Below are positions 21,634 to 35,976 of a DNA stretch of 42,722 nt, in pieces (positions within the stretch are counted from its first letter, which is position 1; the number at the start of each line of letters is the position of its first letter). A program made the translations under genes and the position numbers. The DNA is from Butyrivibrio sp. (lineage in GTDB: Bacteria; Bacillota; Clostridia; Lachnospirales; Lachnospiraceae): positions 1 to 42,722 of the forward strand of contig JAFSQI010000050.1 in NCBI GenBank assembly GCA_017446685.1, read 5' to 3'. Under the pieces are notes generated by a model, which saw only the letters and a program-made list of their open reading frames with translations, searched no databases and was not told where the DNA came from.

Positions 21634-21726
21634 GTATAGGTTTTTGATTTAATTTATAAGTCACTTTTATCAAATGTGTTCATTAACTCCCTATACCTAT
21701 AGAATCGTAGTTTCATATATGTTATT

Positions 21727-21755
21727 TTGACTAATGTACTACATTCGTTTTATAT
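21727..21755 (+). promoter_or_regulatory. Promoter of the C-ACP-A operon with embedded palindrome
   Basis: TTGACT (21727-21732) and TTATAT (21750-21755) are 17 bp apart. The spacer begins with the perfect palindrome AATGTACTACATT (21733-21745), placed as a repressor would need. The predicted start point falls almost on the ribosome binding site, giving a very short leader. The convergent TetR gene at 25513 is the obvious candidate repressor, but binding is inferred. Confidence 0.55.
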
Positions 21756-21769
21756 GAGGGGGGAGGAAA

Positions 21770-23155
21770 ATGTCTACTAAATATTCTTTAACTGCAGCAC
21801 AAAAACTCCATTACAGGTGGATGCAACAGTACAAAACCCAGCAGGTATCAGGGCTTAGTGCTGTTGCATCACTAAAGACTGATTTGGATATTAGTCTTTT
21901 GAAAAAATGTATTGAAATGGAGCTTGAACGGTATAGGTGTCTGCAGGTTCAATTTACAAAGCCGGATAAAAACGGCGAAATCTATCAATATATCCCGGAA
22001 AAAAGAAATATTCCCATTAGCTTTAAAGATTTATCTGAAATGTCTTTATCAGAAGCTGATGACATAATGCAGAGATGGGCATATCAAACTTTTGATGGCG
22101 ACGATATTCCCATGTGCGAGTTTACTCTGGTCAAATTACCGGATAACTATAACGGTTTTTTTATCCATATTGATCATAGATTGATGGATTCGTGCGCGCT
22201 GGTGATCATGATAAACGATATAATGTCTCTCTATACACATTATCGCTTTGGCAGTGATTTTCCCGGCGCACTTTTCGATTATGAGACGGAGCTTATAAAT
22301 GACATAAAAAAGTCTGCTAATGAGAAAAGGTTTATGAAAGATCAAAAATTCTGGAATGATCTTTTAGACAAATATGGAGAGCCGCTTTATTCGGATATTC
22401 AAGGTGTGAGTGTTCTTGAGGATGCAAGAAAAAAGCATAAGAATAAAAACCTTCGCTGCGCGGATATCGAGAGGGAAAATCTTTTTGTTGCGGTAAAAGA
22501 CTACGCACTTGATAGTGCTTCATCCAAAACGCTTATGGATTTTTGCCTGAATCATCAGCTGTCCATGACTAATCTTTTGTTATTGGGAATCAGGACCTAT
22601 TTATCCAAAGTAAATGACGGTCAGGAAGATATAACGATAGAGAATTTTATTTCCAGGAGATCGACCAAAGATGAATGGACCTCCGGAGGCAGCCGAACCA
22701 TCATGTTTCCGTGCAGGACAGTGATCCATCCGGAAACTGATTTTTTATCAGGGGCATACGAAGTGCAGGCAATGCAGAATCGCATATACATGCATAGCAA
22801 TTATGATCCTGCACTTATTTGGGATGAGATTAAAAAAAGATACGGCACCCCTGAAGATACAACCTACGTGAGCTGTTATCTGACTTACCAGCCGCTTCCG
22901 GTCAAGCCTGAAAATCCATATATAAAAGAAATACCAATGCATACAAAATGGTTCGCCAATGGTGCTGCCACGAAAAAGATGTATCTGACAGTATCGCATA
23001 CCCCGGATGGCGGAATGAATTTTTCTTATCATTATCAGACGGCAGCATTATGCGAAAAAGATATAGAGATTTTTAATTACTATCTTATGCGTATTATTTT
23101 TAGAGGAGTAGAACAACCAAACCTGACAATTGCAGATATTATTGGCATGGTCTAA
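21770..23155 (+). CDS. Stand-alone condensation-domain protein
   Basis: A 461-aa protein of the chloramphenicol-acetyltransferase / NRPS condensation superfamily. The active-site motif HHxxxDG appears as DHRLMDS at residues 135-141: the catalytic second His (136) and the structural Asp (140) are kept, but the first His is Asp and the Gly is Ser. The N-terminal YSLTAAQKLHYRW and the LVKLPDNYNGFFIHIDH stretch fit the C-domain fold over the whole length. In this family the enzyme transfers a carrier-bound acyl or peptidyl group to an amine or hydroxyl. A carrier protein and an AMP-forming ligase follow directly, so it likely joins the acyl group they load to an unknown acceptor. The ribosome binding site is GGGGGGAGG. 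Confidence 0.8.
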   Translation: MSTKYSLTAAQKLHYRWMQQYKTQQVSGLSAVASLKTDLDISLLKKCIEMELERYRCLQVQFTKPDKNGEIYQYIPEKRNIPISFKDLSEMSLSEADDIMQRWAYQTFDGDDIPMCEFTLVKLPDNYNGFFIHIDHRLMDSCALVIMINDIMSLYTHYRFGSDFPGALFDYETELINDIKKSANEKRFMKDQKFWNDLLDKYGEPLYSDIQGVSVLEDARKKHKNKNLRCADIERENLFVAVKDYALDSASSKTLMDFCLNHQLSMTNLLLLGIRTYLSKVNDGQEDITIENFISRRSTKDEWTSGGSRTIMFPCRTVIHPETDFLSGAYEVQAMQNRIYMHSNYDPALIWDEIKKRYGTPEDTTYVSCYLTYQPLPVKPENPYIKEIPMHTKWFANGAATKKMYLTVSHTPDGGMNFSYHYQTAALCEKDIEIFNYYLMRIIFRGVEQPNLTIADIIGMV

Positions 23156-23168
23156 AGGAGGATGCGTT

Positions 23169-23408
23169 ATGAAAAAAGAAATTAAGTTTAAAACTATTGT
23201 TTCACAGTATTGTCAATTACAGCCGGAAGAAATGATGGATGAAATGAGATTTCGTGAAGATCTTGGCTTTAGTTCTCTGGATTTTATGTCTATGCTCGGT
23301 GAGCTTGAAGATGAATTTGATATCGAGCTTGAAGAAGACAAAATCATAAATATACATACCATAAAAGAAGCCATGGATCTTATAAAATCTTTGGAGGTGG
23401 CAGTATGA
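23169..23408 (+). CDS. Acyl/peptidyl carrier protein
   Basis: A 79-aa acidic four-helix carrier protein. The phosphopantetheine attachment site is Ser36 in LGFSSLDFM, in which the usual Asp before Ser is replaced by Ser. The rest (ELEDEFDIELEEDK, then TIKEAMDLI) is standard. ATG 23169 is preferred because AAAGGAGG ends 7 nt upstream, right after the stop of the condensation gene. The stop codon overlaps the ligase start in ATGA. Gene order implies a dedicated carrier for this pathway rather than the housekeeping fatty-acid ACP. No phosphopantetheinyl transferase lies in the window. Confidence 0.9.
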   Translation: MKKEIKFKTIVSQYCQLQPEEMMDEMRFREDLGFSSLDFMSMLGELEDEFDIELEEDKIINIHTIKEAMDLIKSLEVAV

Positions 23409-24985
23409 AACATACTTTGAGAAATCTATGGGAGCAGGCTGCCGCTTCATATTCGGATATGACTGCTGTTAAATGGCTCGAACACAAAGATATCAGTTCA
23501 ATAAGTTATAGGGAGCTTAGTGAAGACATTGATAGAATCGGAAGAGGTCTATCTGCCAGTGGATATGATAATGATCATATAGCAATCATCGGTGAGTCAT
23601 CTATGTTCTGGATTGCTTCATATCTTGGAATTGTTACAGGCAACAATGTGGCTGTTCCGCTTGATGCAGCACTTCCAATAAATGAGCTGACAGAGCTTAT
23701 AAATCGTGCTGATTGCAGGGGACTGTTTTTAAGTCCAAAACTTGCGGATATAGCTAAAGCAGCATTAAAAGAATGCCCAAAGCTTGCGAATATATGGTTT
23801 ATGACACATTATTTGCCAAATGAAAAAAATGAGTCTACATCAAAAGCTTCTGCCAAAATTGATTGTATATACAGTCTTATGTCACAGGGGACACTTATTA
23901 GCAGTTATGAAGGCCCACAGGAAGACCAGGTCTGCACAATAATCTTTACCTCCGGCACAACCGGAAAGAGTAAGGGCGTTATGCTGACTCAAAGAAATCT
24001 TTTTGACAATGTAATGAATGTAGATTACACTGCTGCGCCGGGAGCAACGGTTCTTAGCGTATTACCAATACATCATGCATACTGTCTTGTAATGGACTGG
24101 ATGAAGGGCTTTTCCCTGGGGGCGTGCCTTTGTATCAACGATTCCATGATGCATATGATCAGGAATATGAATATTTTTAATCCGGATGTAATGTTGATGG
24201 TTCCGCTTATGATAGAAACCATCTATAAAAAGATTGCTTCATCAGAATCAGGGGCATCAACAGGCACCTTTGGAGACAGACTAAAAATTATTTTTACAGG
24301 TGGAGCGCACCTTGAGCCTTATTACATTGATGAATTTGAAAAGCTTGGTGTCACAGTTTTAGAGGGCTATGGCATGTCAGAGTGTTCCCCTGTCATCACA
24401 TCGAATACACCTGACAATTTCAAAAAAGGGTCAATTGGAAAACCACTGGATAATGTCGAAATATCTTTTGAAAACGGAGAAATACTGGTAAAGGGAAGTA
24501 GTGTTATGAAGGGCTATTACAAAATGGAAGAAGAGACTGCAAAAGCCCTTAAAGACGGCTGGCTCCATACAGGTGACAAAGGATATCTTGACGAGGATGG
24601 GTATCTTTATATTAATGGGCGAGTCAAAAATCTTATAATAATGTCCAATGGAGAGAATGTTTCTCCGGAAGAGATAGAAAATAAGCTTTCCTTGAATCCA
24701 CTTGTTGCAGAAATAATAGTAAGTGGTGAAAATAATGGCCTTACTGCCTCCATTTATCCTGATATGGAGCTGGTGCAAAAAGATTGTCTGTCAGAAGATG
24801 AAGTCAAAGCATCTTTGCAGACATTGATTGATCATTACAACAGTAATCAACCAACCTACAGGCATATAACTAAGATCATCATAAGAGATGAGCCCTTCAA
24901 AAGAAACACCACAGGTAAAATCAAAAGATTTAGTAACTCAGTCCCACAGGTAGGGCAGGACACCCTTCAAAAAGGCGTTAGCTAA
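23405..24985 (+). CDS. AMP-dependent acyl-CoA synthetase/ligase (acyl-ACP loading)
   Basis: A 526-aa ANL-superfamily enzyme that activates a carboxylate as the acyl-adenylate. The P-loop TSGTTGKSKGVML, the YGMSECSPV motif, the hinge GDKGYLDEDGYLYINGR and the C-terminal catalytic Lys in NTTGKIKR are all intact. Motif wording (YGMSECSP, GSIGKPLDNVEI, GEILVKG) is closer to long-chain fatty acyl ligases than to amino-acid adenylation domains, so a fatty acid is the likelier substrate. It is translationally coupled to the carrier gene (4-bp overlap). The last 48 bp overlap the 3' end of the convergent TetR gene. Confidence 0.88.
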   Translation: MKHTLRNLWEQAAASYSDMTAVKWLEHKDISSISYRELSEDIDRIGRGLSASGYDNDHIAIIGESSMFWIASYLGIVTGNNVAVPLDAALPINELTELINRADCRGLFLSPKLADIAKAALKECPKLANIWFMTHYLPNEKNESTSKASAKIDCIYSLMSQGTLISSYEGPQEDQVCTIIFTSGTTGKSKGVMLTQRNLFDNVMNVDYTAAPGATVLSVLPIHHAYCLVMDWMKGFSLGACLCINDSMMHMIRNMNIFNPDVMLMVPLMIETIYKKIASSESGASTGTFGDRLKIIFTGGAHLEPYYIDEFEKLGVTVLEGYGMSECSPVITSNTPDNFKKGSIGKPLDNVEISFENGEILVKGSSVMKGYYKMEEETAKALKDGWLHTGDKGYLDEDGYLYINGRVKNLIIMSNGENVSPEEIENKLSLNPLVAEIIVSGENNGLTASIYPDMELVQKDCLSEDEVKASLQTLIDHYNSNQPTYRHITKIIIRDEPFKRNTTGKIKRFSNSVPQVGQDTLQKGVS

Positions 24986-25513
24986 TATATCGGCTACATT
25001 TTCAGCGGAGGATTCAAAATTCTCCGCTGTCCATTTATGTAGTACACCTATTGTAAAACCGATAGTTCCGGCAATAAGATAGGTAAAGTGCTCTCTGGAC
25101 TTTGGGATTGCAGTTCCTTCTTTTCCTGTTCCGGCTACATATTTGTGGAACATAGCCATAGCCTTTTCCAAAAAAGAATTGCCTCTCGGGCTCTTGAATA
25201 GTCCTGCAAGAAATGGGTTTTCTTTTGTATAATTGCAGATTGCAAGAAAATATGATTTGCAAAGTTCGTGATCATTTTGCGGATGAAAGGATTCCATGAG
25301 TTTGAATATATCAGCAATTGTCTTATCCTCAACTGCGCTTACAAGTTCTTCTACGTTTTCGTAATGATTGTAAAAAGTGCTTCTTACTATTCCGGATTTT
25401 TTTACCAGATCTGCAACTGTAATTTTGTCGTAATCCTTTTCTCTTATTAAAAGAAAAAACGAATCTATTATTGCTTCCTCAGAAGTGCTGTATCTTTCAT
25501 CTAATTCATTCAT
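24938..25513 (-). CDS. TetR/AcrR-family transcriptional regulator
   Basis: A 191-aa repressor. The N-terminal helix-turn-helix (about residues 10-58) includes KITVADLVKKSGIVRSTFYN followed by HYENVEEL. The C-terminal helical domain resembles the TetR_C_33-like / DhaS-type group with an unknown ligand. AGGGG precedes the ATG by 7 nt. It converges on the C-ACP-A operon with a 48-bp coding overlap, which suggests it regulates that operon. The palindrome ATGTTAACAT (25567-25576) upstream of its own start shares ATGT/ACAT half-sites with the palindrome in the operon's promoter, though the spacing differs by one base. A stem-loop at 25003-25029 inside its 3' coding region may slow transcription from the ligase side. 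Confidence 0.85.
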   Translation of the reverse strand: MNELDERYSTSEEAIIDSFFLLIREKDYDKITVADLVKKSGIVRSTFYNHYENVEELVSAVEDKTIADIFKLMESFHPQNDHELCKSYFLAICNYTKENPFLAGLFKSPRGNSFLEKAMAMFHKYVAGTGKEGTAIPKSREHFTYLIAGTIGFTIGVLHKWTAENFESSAENVADILANAFLKGVLPYLWD

Positions 25514-25825: not shown

Positions 25826-25864
25826 AAAGGTTGTTTGACGCAGACTTTTAGCGACCATAAATGC

Positions 25865-25893
25865 TTGACAAATACCCCACCTGGGTATATATT
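25865..25893 (+). promoter_or_regulatory. csoR-copA promoter
   Basis: TTGACA (25865-25870) and TATATT (25888-25893) with a 17-bp spacer form a near-consensus sigma-A promoter. The spacer is almost wholly occupied by the first CsoR box. Confidence 0.8.
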
Positions 25894-25923
25894 GATAAAA
25901 ATCAATATACCCAGGCGGGGTAT
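25872..25923. promoter_or_regulatory. Tandem CsoR operator boxes in a long palindrome
   Basis: Two boxes of ATACCC-N5-GGGTAT occur at 25872-25888 and 25907-25923. They are reverse complements of each other apart from the centre and together form an inverted repeat with AT-rich arms. The first box sits between -35 and -10 and the second just downstream of the start point. This matches the known GC-rich CsoR operator type, so apo-CsoR should block the promoter until Cu(I) binds. Confidence 0.88.
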
Positions 25924-25941
25924 TTATGGTGGAGGAAATAT

Positions 25942-26277
25942 ATGTCCGAGAATGAATGCAAAATGGAAGAAATGGAGGGCTGTTGCCCACATTGCTCTGG
26001 AAAACATAAAGACAGAGATGATAAAGAAAAAAGAGATCTGATGAACAGGCTCAAAAGGATAGAGGGTCAGGTTCGAGGTGTTGAAGGTATGCTTGAAAAT
26101 GGTGCATACTGCACTGATATTCTGGTGCAGGTATCTGCTATTACCAGTGCTCTCAACAGCTTTAATAAAGTTCTTTTGGCCAATCATATGAGAACCTGTG
26201 TGGCAGACAATATCCGTGAGGGAAATGATGAGATTATTGATGAGCTTGTGGTTACGCTTCAGAAATTGATGAAGTAA
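25942..26277 (+). CDS. csoR: CsoR-family copper-sensing repressor
   Basis: A 111-aa all-helical DUF156 repressor. The Cu(I) ligand set is complete: Cys57 in AYCTDIL and His82/Cys86 in NHMRTC. The family signature RLKRIEGQVRGVEGML is also present. An N-terminal extension of about 25 residues carries an additional CCPHC cluster (residues 14-18) that could bind metal too. ATG 25942 is used because GGAGG ends 6 nt upstream; the longer frame from 25861 runs through the promoter and operators. It is transcribed with copA and presumably represses both. Confidence 0.92.
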   Translation: MSENECKMEEMEGCCPHCSGKHKDRDDKEKRDLMNRLKRIEGQVRGVEGMLENGAYCTDILVQVSAITSALNSFNKVLLANHMRTCVADNIREGNDEIIDELVVTLQKLMK

Positions 26278-26287
26278 ATCATGACGA

Positions 26288-26344
26288 CGAGAACAGCACA
26301 TTTATGTTCATCTCATATAATTTGGCTGATAACCGGATAGTAAC
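26288..26344 (+). repeat. Intergenic repeat, copy B
   Basis: This 57-bp stretch is about 80% identical to 119-174, with the shared blocks listed there. It lies between csoR and copA, inside what should be the copper operon mRNA, so it could act at the RNA level as well as being a DNA repeat. Confidence 0.65.
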
Positions 26345-26408
26345 CGAGTTTATTGGTTCATAGGCTATGAACCGGCATTTGACTATGTATATTTTGAAAG
26401 GAACAAAA

Positions 26409-28985
26409 ATGGAACAATATAATATAACCGGAATGAGCTGCGCTGCATGCCAGGCCAGAGTTGAGAAGGCAGTAAATGCCATAGATGGCGTTGAAAGCTG
26501 TGCGGTAAGCCTTCTTACTAACTCTATGGGTGTTCAGGGAAGTGCATCTGCGGAAGAAATAATCAAGGCTGTAGAGTCAGCCGGTTATGGCGCCAGCTTG
26601 AAAAAAACAGACGTGTCATGCACCACGTCAAATAAATATGATGATTCACTTAAAGATAGAGAAACGCCGGTACTGAAAAAGCGTCTTATTGCCTCAGTCA
26701 TTCTGTTGATTCCCCTGATGTATGTTTCTATGGGACATATGTTATGGAATTGGCCTCTTCCGTCATTTCTGGATGGCAATCATGTGGCAATGGGATTATA
26801 TCAGCTTCTGATCGCAGGGTTTATTATGGTGATAAATCAGAAGTTTTTTATCAGCGGATTCAAAGGACTTATTCACAGGGCTCCTAACATGGACACACTG
26901 GTAGCACTTGGAGCCACAGCTTCTTATGCATATAGTGTATTTGCCCTTTTTGCCATGTCCGGTGCTGTGCTGGATGGAAACGAAGATCAGGTAATGTATT
27001 ACATGGATCAATTCTATTTCGAGTCTGCGGCAACCATCCTGACTCTTATTACAGTGGGAAAAACCCTTGAGGCAAGGTCAAAAGGTAAAACCACAGATGC
27101 ACTGAAAGCTCTGATGAGGCTTGCTCCTAAAACAGCTGTAATCCTCGAAGGTGATAAAGAGATAACTGTTCAGATAGATGAGGTAAAGGTCGGAGACAGA
27201 TTTGTTGTAAGGCCGGGAGACAGTATACCTGTAGATGGTATCGTAAAAGAGGGCGAGAGCGCTGTTAACGAATCAGCGCTTACAGGAGAAAGTGTTCCTG
27301 TAGAAAAACAGGCAGGAGATAAGGTGTCAGCTGCAACCATCAATACTTCGGGGTATATGGTATGCGAAGCAACAGGGGTTGGTGAAGATACAACTCTTGC
27401 CGGAATCATACGTATGGTCAGCGATGCGGCAGCAACCAAGGCACCGATTGCAAAGATTGCCGACAGGGTATCAGGAGTATTTGTACCGGTGGTTATCGGT
27501 ATTGCGTTTGCAACTTTTATTGTGTGGTTAATGGCAGGCCAAAACTTCGGATATGCCATGGCAAGAGCAGTATCGGTCCTTGTAATAAGTTGCCCCTGTG
27601 CTTTGGGACTTGCAACTCCCGTGGCAATAATGGTTGGAAACGGAGTTGGGGCAAAGAGCGGAATTTTGTTTAAGACTGCAGCAGTGCAGGAGCTTACAGG
27701 AAAAACGCAGATAGTTGCCCTTGATAAGACAGGAACTATAACAACAGGCATTATGCGTGTTACGGATGTTATTCCTGCAGATGATATCAGTGAGAAAGAA
27801 CTCTTGGCAACTGCCTATGCACTGGAATCCAAAAGTGAGCATCCTATTTCAAAAGCAATTATTGATCATGCAAAAGAGCATGAGATAGAGCTTCTTGAGA
27901 CAACGGAGTTTGAAGTATTATCCGGAAACGGGTTAAAAGCAAAGCTTGACGGTGTTTCTGTGGCAGGTGGAAATGCAAGATTTATTACAGGAATTTTGGA
28001 ACATCCTGATGTGCTAAAAAGTGAATCCATGGATAAGCTTGCTTCTCAGGGAAAGACACCGGTTCTTTTTACCAAAGATAATAAGCTGATGGGAATAATA
28101 GCGGTAGCTGACACCATAAAGGAGGATACGCCGCAGGCGATCAGTGAGCTTAAGAAAATGGGTATCCATGTTGTAATGCTGACCGGTGATAATGAAATTA
28201 CAGCAAAAGCTATTGCAGAACAGGCAGGAGTAGATGAAGTAGTTGCCGGAGTACTTCCTGACGGAAAAGAAGCTGTTATCAGAAAACTCATGGAGCATGG
28301 AAAAGTAGCCATGGTTGGAGATGGAATAAATGATGCACCGGCGCTTACACGTGCGGATGTTGGAATTGCCATAGGAGCAGGAACAGACATAGCTATAGAC
28401 GCGGCAGATGTTGTACTCATGAAGAGCAGTATTCGCGATGTGGCAGCAGCTATCAGAATTTCAAGGGCAACATTAAGAAATATCCACGAGAATCTTTTCT
28501 GGGCATTTTTCTATAATATCATAGGTATTCCGCTTGCTGCAGGCTGCTATGTAGCTGCCTTTGGATGGACACTCAATCCTATGTTTGGCGCAGCAGCTAT
28601 GGGACTTTCAAGCTTTTGCGTAGTATCTAATGCGTTAAGACTTAATTGGTTAAAAGTGCATGACGGAAAAAATGACAAGATAATCAAGAACCCGGTTAAT
28701 TATACAATCATGCAATCCTCAGGTACGAAGATTGATAATGATATAAAAGAAAAAAATAATAAGAATAAGGAGAATAACGAAATGAAAATTAAGGTAAACG
28801 GAATGATGTGTGCACACTGTGAGGCTCATGTAAAGGAAGCTCTTGAGGCAATTGACGGAATTGAGTCAGTAGTAGCTTCTCATGAGGATAATCTGGTGAC
28901 TATCAACAATTCTAAGGATGTTGATGAGGCTCTTATCAAGGAAGCTGTCACAAAAGCAGGCTATGAATATGCCGGAATTGCATAA
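26409..28985 (+). CDS. copA: Copper-exporting P1B-type ATPase with N- and C-terminal HMA domains
   Basis: An 858-aa Cu(I)-exporting P-type ATPase. The N-terminal heavy-metal-associated domain has MSCAAC (Cys11, Cys14). The core carries the transmembrane CPC motif ([11 protein letters not shown]), phosphorylation motif DKTGT, SEHP, and GDGINDAPA. Standard CopA ends soon after the last membrane helices. Here a Lys/Asn/Glu-rich linker (about residues 760-791) leads to a second HMA domain (792-858) with MMCAHC, which is the size and sequence type of the chaperone CopZ. ATG 26409 is used because AAAGGA ends 7 nt upstream. It sits downstream of csoR and should be induced by copper. Confidence 0.95.
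28782..28985 (+). other. Possible internal translation start yielding free CopZ
   Basis: Inside copA and in frame, AAGGAG (28767-28772) lies 9 nt before ATG 28782. Starting there gives a 67-aa CopZ-like copper chaperone ([17 protein letters not shown] ...). The linker codons around the site are A-rich and likely unstructured, favouring initiation. Either an ancestral copA and copZ fused while the copZ start survived, or both full-length and short products are made. Only expression data can tell. Confidence 0.45.
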
Positions 28986-35229: not shown

Positions 35230-35976
35230 ATGTATATTGATTGTGACGGTATAAAATTAAATGCCTATCTAGATATGCCAAAGAATAATGCAGAAAAGTG
35301 TCCATTGTGCATCATAATCCATGGTTTTACAGGACATAGTGAAGAAAGACATATTGTTGCGGTTCAGGAAACACTTAATGAAATCGGGGTGGCAACACTT
35401 CGCGCAGACATGTATGGACATGGAAAGAGCAACGGAAAGTTTGAAGATCACACCCTTTTCAAGTGGCTTACCAATATTCTTGCGGTAGTTGATTATGCCA
35501 AGAAGCTTGACTTTGTTACAGATATCTACATGGCAGGCCATTCCCAGGGAGGACTCTCTGTAATGCTTGCAGCAGCTATGGAAAGAGATGTTATCAAGGC
35601 GCTTATTCCGTTATCACCGGCTGCAATGATTCCTGAAATTGCCAGAACAGGAGAACTTCTCGGAATTAAATTTGATCCGGAGAATATTCCTGATGAACTT
35701 GACGCATGGGATGGAAGAAAGCTTAAAGGCAATTATGTCAGAGTTGCCCAGACTATCAGGGTTGAGGACTTTGTGGATAAATATACAAAACCAGTACTTA
35801 TAGTTCACGGAGATCAGGATGAAGCCGTTCCTTATGAAGCTTCCGTGACATTTTCCAAACAGTACAAGAACTGCAAACTGGTAACTATTCCCGGAGATAC
35901 CCACTGCTACGATAACCATCTTGAACTTGTCACCGAAGCGGTAAAAGAATTTATGCTTGAGCAGATGACAAGGTAA
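35230..35976 (+). CDS. est1E: Feruloyl/cinnamoyl esterase, Est1E-like alpha/beta hydrolase
   Basis: A 248-aa alpha/beta hydrolase. The nucleophile is Ser105 in GHSQGG, with Asp197 in GDQDEAVP and His225 in GDTHCY. The oxyanion-hole region is IIHGFTGHSEE. Length, sequence and triad numbering agree, from memory, with Est1E of Butyrivibrio proteoclasticus, whose crystal structure shows a small lid domain over the active site. It releases ferulic and p-coumaric acid from arabinoxylan side chains. No signal peptide is present, so it acts inside the cell on imported oligosaccharides or esters. AGGGAAAAGAG precedes the ATG. It stands just downstream of the MITE-like element. Confidence 0.95.
   Translation: MYIDCDGIKLNAYLDMPKNNAEKCPLCIIIHGFTGHSEERHIVAVQETLNEIGVATLRADMYGHGKSNGKFEDHTLFKWLTNILAVVDYAKKLDFVTDIYMAGHSQGGLSVMLAAAMERDVIKALIPLSPAAMIPEIARTGELLGIKFDPENIPDELDAWDGRKLKGNYVRVAQTIRVEDFVDKYTKPVLIVHGDQDEAVPYEASVTFSKQYKNCKLVTIPGDTHCYDNHLELVTEAVKEFMLEQMTR

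Follow-up and report, generated by a model that had tools for sequence, protein, structure and literature searches.

A probable fatty acid amide operon of Butyrivibrio with a linked TetR-family gene and a conserved promoter element

Introduction

What do three tightly packed genes for a condensation domain, a carrier and a ligase make, and what controls them? In a 42,722-nucleotide stretch of Butyrivibrio sp. DNA (contig JAFSQI010000050.1, assembly GCA_017446685.1; the whole stretch is called the window here), a stand-alone condensation domain (C), an acyl carrier protein (T) and a fatty-acyl-type AMP ligase (A) are encoded in one operon, towards which a TetR-family regulator gene converges. 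The preliminary description of this sequence knew of no characterised product for the arrangement and named homologues tied to a known product as one finding that would overturn this view. Such homologues exist: in two reports (PMC13142362, PMC13060934) they are tied to fatty acid amides (FAAs). Here we describe the anatomy and family of the operon, its linkage to the TetR gene and the conservation of its promoter, all of which were observed directly.

Results

The enzymes resemble a characterised fatty acid amide pathway

Among all solved structures C had one strong match, PDB 12KH (E=3.7e-160), and the sole other listed chain reached E=0.00049. The corresponding report (PMC13142362) identifies 12KH as OaaC, from the oleoyl-aminovaleric-acid pathway of Coprococcus eutactus, and states that FAA formation was reconstituted in vitro with the OaaC system by its authors. 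According to the same text, (D/H)HxxxDS often replaces HHxxxDG in FAA condensation domains, which act together with a separate ligase and carrier and take free amines as acceptors; the description of a homodimer opened by holo-carrier is shown there for OaaC only.

Over 455 residues, window C and OaaC share 48.8% identity, and the motif DHRLMDS (residues 135-141) is identical in both proteins. It had been noted earlier as an altered motif; it is present as described, but DHxxxDS was found in 110 of 111 aligned C rows (the remaining row reads DHRLLDA) and is the published signature of the FAA family. Like OaaC, which has its own carrier and ligase (OaaACP and OaaA), window C is free-standing: Pfam finds a single PF00668 stretch (residues 2-456), fused to neither A nor carrier, and separate carrier and ligase genes adjoin it. 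The PF00668 fold family is shared with the canonical condensation domains of non-ribosomal peptide synthetases (NRPSs); unlike these, window C is unfused, has no acceptor carrier and carries DHxxxDS for HHxxxDG, and the best such solved match was at E=0.00049. The catalytic motifs of A (TSGTTGKSKG, GYGMSE, GWLHTGD, RNTTGKIKR) and the Ser36 of T are intact, and the genome itself gave a phosphopantetheinyl transferase family match.

A three-gene operon of the same description, named 'CTA', has been reported from Blautia wexlerae and other Lachnospiraceae. In that report, strains with the operon (Blautia species and a Coprococcus catus isolate) made more acyl ethanolamines in culture than strains lacking it, and some amines restored the growth of B. 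wexlerae exposed to toxic fatty acids (PMC13060934). The likeness drawn here between the window operon and CTA is one of operon description. The match of C to OaaC, the DHxxxDS motif and the CTA culture data therefore place the operon in an already known kind, and we assign its enzymes with high confidence to an FAA (CTA) operon, with an amide chemistry predicted by analogy with the characterised relatives.

According to this assignment, A would convert a free fatty acid to acyl-AMP and then load the phosphopantetheine arm of T at Ser36, after which C would bind acyl-T and transfer the acyl moiety to a small, freely diffusing amine, so that an N-acyl amide would be released without a thioesterase. 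Homology thus lends support to the proposal, made from the sequence earlier, of activation, carrier loading and transfer to a free acceptor without a multimodular NRPS or thioesterase. An alternative in which the acceptor is an alcohol, or the amine of a lipid or protein, and the product another lipid conjugate, is improbable; it would fit the finding that no amine-making neighbour was recognised by eye among the 30 largest neighbour clusters listed (many neighbour clusters being reading frames opposite known genes), but small free amines are the acceptors of the solved homologue and of the DHxxxDS group.

The four-gene arrangement recurs and the TetR gene accompanies it

Coordinates and Pfam agree on the proposed layout of C, T, A and an overlapping, convergent TetR gene (Table 1). 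C and T are separated by 13 bp, T and A overlap by 4 bp and A and TetR by 48 bp, and the matches to Condensation, PP-binding, AMP-binding with AMP-binding_C_3, and TetR_N are all above cut-off. When the three-gene order was searched for in the named loci, which are the best 80 of at least 567 relative-encoding stretches among 597, C-T-A followed by a convergent TetR gene was found in 63 of the 80. The arrangement thus exceeds chance; among the remaining 17 loci, 11 are cases in which the fetched locus ends shortly after C, T or A.

C (E<=1e-20) was detected in 30 of the 79 genus genomes. Of 397 sampled family genomes 55 have it: the window's own, 12 near relatives (49-70% identity) and 42 more distant genomes (<=39%), called the far group below. 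Several relatives come from rumen or other animal-gut samples, and viral contigs gave no match. Three far-group loci (L046, L047 and L048; motif DHRIMDS), from genomes of 5.7-6.9 Mb, had no T, A or hydrolase hits around C. The patchy spread within the genus might suggest that the operon is decaying or silent, but every frame is open, the catalytic motifs are retained and the comparison of C with its nearest relative gives a dN/dS of 0.045, albeit at a dS of 1.57; we consider decay very improbable.

TetR (E<=1e-20) was detected in 29 of the 79 genus genomes and C is present in all 29, in agreement with the earlier suggestion that the regulator belongs with the operon. The sole genus genome with C but without TetR, G425, has a contig that ends inside A. 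Of the 12 near loci outside the genus, 9 have TetR next to the operon (33-67% identity): in L035 and L040 it is found upstream of C, and in seven it lies downstream and converges on the operon; among genus loci, it has the same direction as C in L067 and L086.

A promoter element is conserved upstream of C

The consensus upstream of C consists of GGtCAaTTT, a short spacer, aAagTGTTcrTTAAgTC, a weak -35 and an extended -10, TGnTAnnnT. Promoters were taken from 122 C genes (at least 48% identity, spanning at least 440 residues), from which 12 identical copies were dropped to leave 110 including the window. Excluded were L090 and L091, between which a single C gene is divided over two contigs, as well as the short loci L001-L033 and L054-L060. 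The element was scored as present when the box matched at >=8/10 positions and the -10 at >=6/7, with a spacing of exactly 41 nt. By this measure 101 of 110 C promoters carry it, while other spacings from 34 to 49 nt were found in 0-8 promoters each, the exception being 35 nt (17 promoters). On the reverse strand the count was 2/110 and in shuffled sequence 1.35/110, and upstream of other genes the element was seen in 3/95 cases for TetR, 0/55 for a frequently linked hydrolase (see below) and 0/98 for A. Its definition came from the window together with L034-L045 and L061-L090; of the 68 remaining loci, on which it was then tested, 63 carry it. Because the loci are related to each other, these counts overstate independence; seven representatives below 80% identity were all element-positive (7/7).

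The inverted-repeat pattern of the element (Table 1) was present in 86 of 110 C promoters, compared with 1/95 TetR, 1/55 hydrolase, 0/99 A and 0/102 T upstream regions. A second, weaker copy lies 33 bp upstream in 52 of the 101 positive promoters, the window not being among these 52. Two TGTYYRTTAA boxes 33 bp apart were also noted upstream of C in L088 and L089. The 13-bp box has a single match in the window's own genome, the operon promoter, and occurs somewhere in 57 of 79 genus genomes, not clearly more often than its reversed control does. For this reason the box, unspecific when taken alone, is read here as a site that has a single target.

Other candidate operators were rejected. The perfect palindrome that had been noticed in the promoter exists (AATGTACTACATT at 21733-21745, with 6-bp arms and a 1-bp spacer), but it is not the conserved element, because only 2 of 110 related promoters, those of the window and its nearest relative, have it; palindromes of that size occur in 26 of 110 promoters (last 100 bp) versus a mean of 20.3 after shuffling. 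The dyad AACACTTT-N6-AAAGTGTT was found in too few promoters for a general site, at >=12/16 in 11/110 C promoters versus 8/330 shuffles and at >=13/16 in 3/110 versus 0/330.

Some relatives lack the carrier and ligase, and many carry a hydrolase

In 5 of 31 fetched genus loci (L075, L076, L078, L079, L086) C and TetR are direct neighbours without an intervening T or A, and L167, from a Clostridia bacterium, has the same arrangement. In a tree of near-group C proteins and OaaC only, four of these reduced loci form one clade (support 0.971), so that T and A, if lost, were lost at least three times. C is intact in all six, with the motif DHRLIDS or DHRLLDS, only L086 falls short of the threshold for the promoter element, and dN/dS of C was 0.03 and 0.10 in two pairs at saturated dS. 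The best candidate for a T or A remnant in the six loci was an 18-residue A match (E=0.46). Relatives of A (E<=1e-20) numbered none in G409 and G430 and one each in G461, G471 and G415 (34-48%); by eye these lie in other contexts, which in the case of G415 and G471 are NRPS-like. The same five genomes gave carrier matches of 26-41% identity. C of the reduced loci may use the general acyl carrier.

Of 109 near-group loci, 55 have an alpha/beta hydrolase gene (PF12146, E=7.5e-21) in the vicinity of C (for example L035:11258-12250), and in 52 of these 55 it is upstream of C in the same direction, mostly close but about 4 kb off in L127 and L154. In the far group, a 29-35% relative of this hydrolase either overlaps C or is separated from it by no more than about 15 bp in 12 of 17 loci (L049-L053, L092-L097, L100); the far loci without it are L046-L048, which had no T or A hit either, and L098-L099, which have other gene orders. 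In none of the fetched genus loci was an operon-linked hydrolase seen, and hydrolase relatives in 70 of 79 genus genomes are of 26-34% only. The hydrolase is a candidate fourth pathway gene; our guess is that it may supply fatty acids or degrade the amide. The window contains another PF12146 hydrolase (35230-35976), 10 kb downstream of the operon, and the match to the operon-linked hydrolase in the window's own genome is a different gene, on contig C98.

The TetR protein probably binds the conserved site

From its linkage to the operon and the position of the element, we consider it likely that the convergent TetR protein binds the conserved site (21660-21689); it would thereby control the promoter before C and render the operon inducible. 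Alternatively, the element could serve another regulator, with TetR acting elsewhere. The loci in which element and TetR disagree speak for this, as does the occurrence of the 13-bp box in genus genomes without C and TetR. Against it, the C promoters of G168, G395 and G474, which have no TetR at E<=1e-20, also lack the element, and in the far group it was found in 0/17 C promoters, with no adjoining TetR match above 100 bits. Moreover, a box without clear genus-wide excess over the reversed control is as expected of a site with one target. G248 has the element, and its TetR fragment sits on another contig. We regard a different regulator as unlikely.

Several observations weigh against the reading as a TetR-controlled FAA operon. 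L036, L086, L172, L179 and L190 have a close TetR yet fail the element threshold, L144 fails it though its genome has TetR, and L043 and L044 pass it with a distant TetR (33-38%). The inverted-repeat pattern alone is weak, having 4 matches in the window, counted over both strands. For the enzymes, 48.8% identity to OaaC leaves the substrates unfixed, C is missing from 49 of 79 genus genomes, and C, T and A are not inseparable, because some close relatives retain C and TetR without T and A.

The position of the conserved site suggests an activator

The conserved site lies about 60 bp ahead of the predicted start and ends upstream of the -35. Activators often bind at such a distance, and the position of the site therefore suggests that TetR activates; given this position and the linkage, we lean slightly towards activation. 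Characterised TetR proteins are mostly repressors, and a classical repressor freed by fatty acid, acyl-CoA or amine, acting on the same enzymes, is a serious contender that we hold at somewhat less than even chances. Among the 14 solved sequences matched by the TetR profile, the best, 3kkc, is annotated merely as a TetR regulator, which leaves room for repression; it is followed by 4mk6, a probable dihydroxyacetone kinase regulator. Further down is 2iu5, the named activator DhaS (E=1.6e-6), matched over profile residues 9-67, that is over the DNA-binding region only, with no match over the 2iu5 ligand domain. This match, the weak -35 of the promoter core and a conserved site that stops upstream of the -35 rather than covering the core argue against repression. 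The C-terminal domain TetR_C_8 (PF14278), which may characterise DhaS-type activators, is below cut-off in the TetR protein, scoring 23.9 bits versus a cut-off of 26.1; the conserved site may also resemble the operator of DhaS.

Table 1. Genes and promoter features of the operon (positions in the window)
Feature	Position	Strand	Details
C, stand-alone condensation domain	21770-23155	+	461 aa; PF00668, E=4.3e-37
T, acyl carrier protein	23169-23408	+	79 aa; PF00550, E=1.2e-10; GFSSLD with Ser36
A, fatty-acyl-type AMP ligase	23405-24985	+	526 aa; PF00501, E=1.1e-62, and PF23562 (AMP-binding_C_3)
TetR-family regulator, convergent with A	24938-25513	-	191 aa; PF00440 (TetR_N) above cut-off
Imperfect inverted repeat GTCA-N13-TGTTC, putative regulator site	21660-21681	+	G[AT]CA-N13-TGT[TC][CT]
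Conserved box TGTTCATTAACTC	21677-21689	+	exactly 41 nt from TRTGNTA
Weak -35-like hexamer TAGAAT	21700-21705	+	element positions 23-27 conserved; predicted promoter role
Extended -10 TGTTATTTT	21720-21728	+	conserved TGnTAnnnT; predicted promoter role

Elsewhere in the window (25861-28985), a gene for a CsoR-type repressor (PF02583) precedes one for a metal-transporting P-type ATPase, and beside the start of CsoR there is an inverted repeat (ATACCCCACCTGGGTATA-like).

Discussion

The window operon differs from its characterised relatives in host and in what is described around the genes. OaaC comes from Coprococcus eutactus, not Butyrivibrio, and a TetR-linked promoter is unmentioned in PMC13142362; the text of the CTA report (PMC13060934) mentions neither TetR, promoter nor Butyrivibrio, and the words TetR, promoter and hydrolase are absent from both main texts. 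Among the literature matches listed, none reported a TetR gene, a promoter or a hydrolase linked to FAA operons, or Butyrivibrio as a producer. The linked TetR gene and the conserved promoter may therefore be new, although priority is uncertain.

As a tentative and rather doubtful extension, a DhaS-like TetR activator acting on an element of about 30 bp, often duplicated 33 bp upstream, might switch the FAA operon in response to a lipid or amine signal across a Lachnospiraceae clade, several lineages of which would have lost carrier and ligase but kept C, TetR and promoter, with C there drawing acyl groups from the carrier of the cell's own fatty acid synthesis.

Gut-bacterial FAAs act on host receptors according to both reports (PMC13142362, PMC13060934), and the relatives from rumen and animal gut extend a system that was described from the human gut. 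By analogy with what has been proposed for Blautia, a possible role of the window operon is the disposal of toxic long-chain fatty acids. Rumen Butyrivibrio encounter much unsaturated fatty acid, and such a detoxification role is therefore testable in these organisms. We found no report of what switches FAA genes on, and the linked regulator and its promoter provide a handle for finding the inducer.

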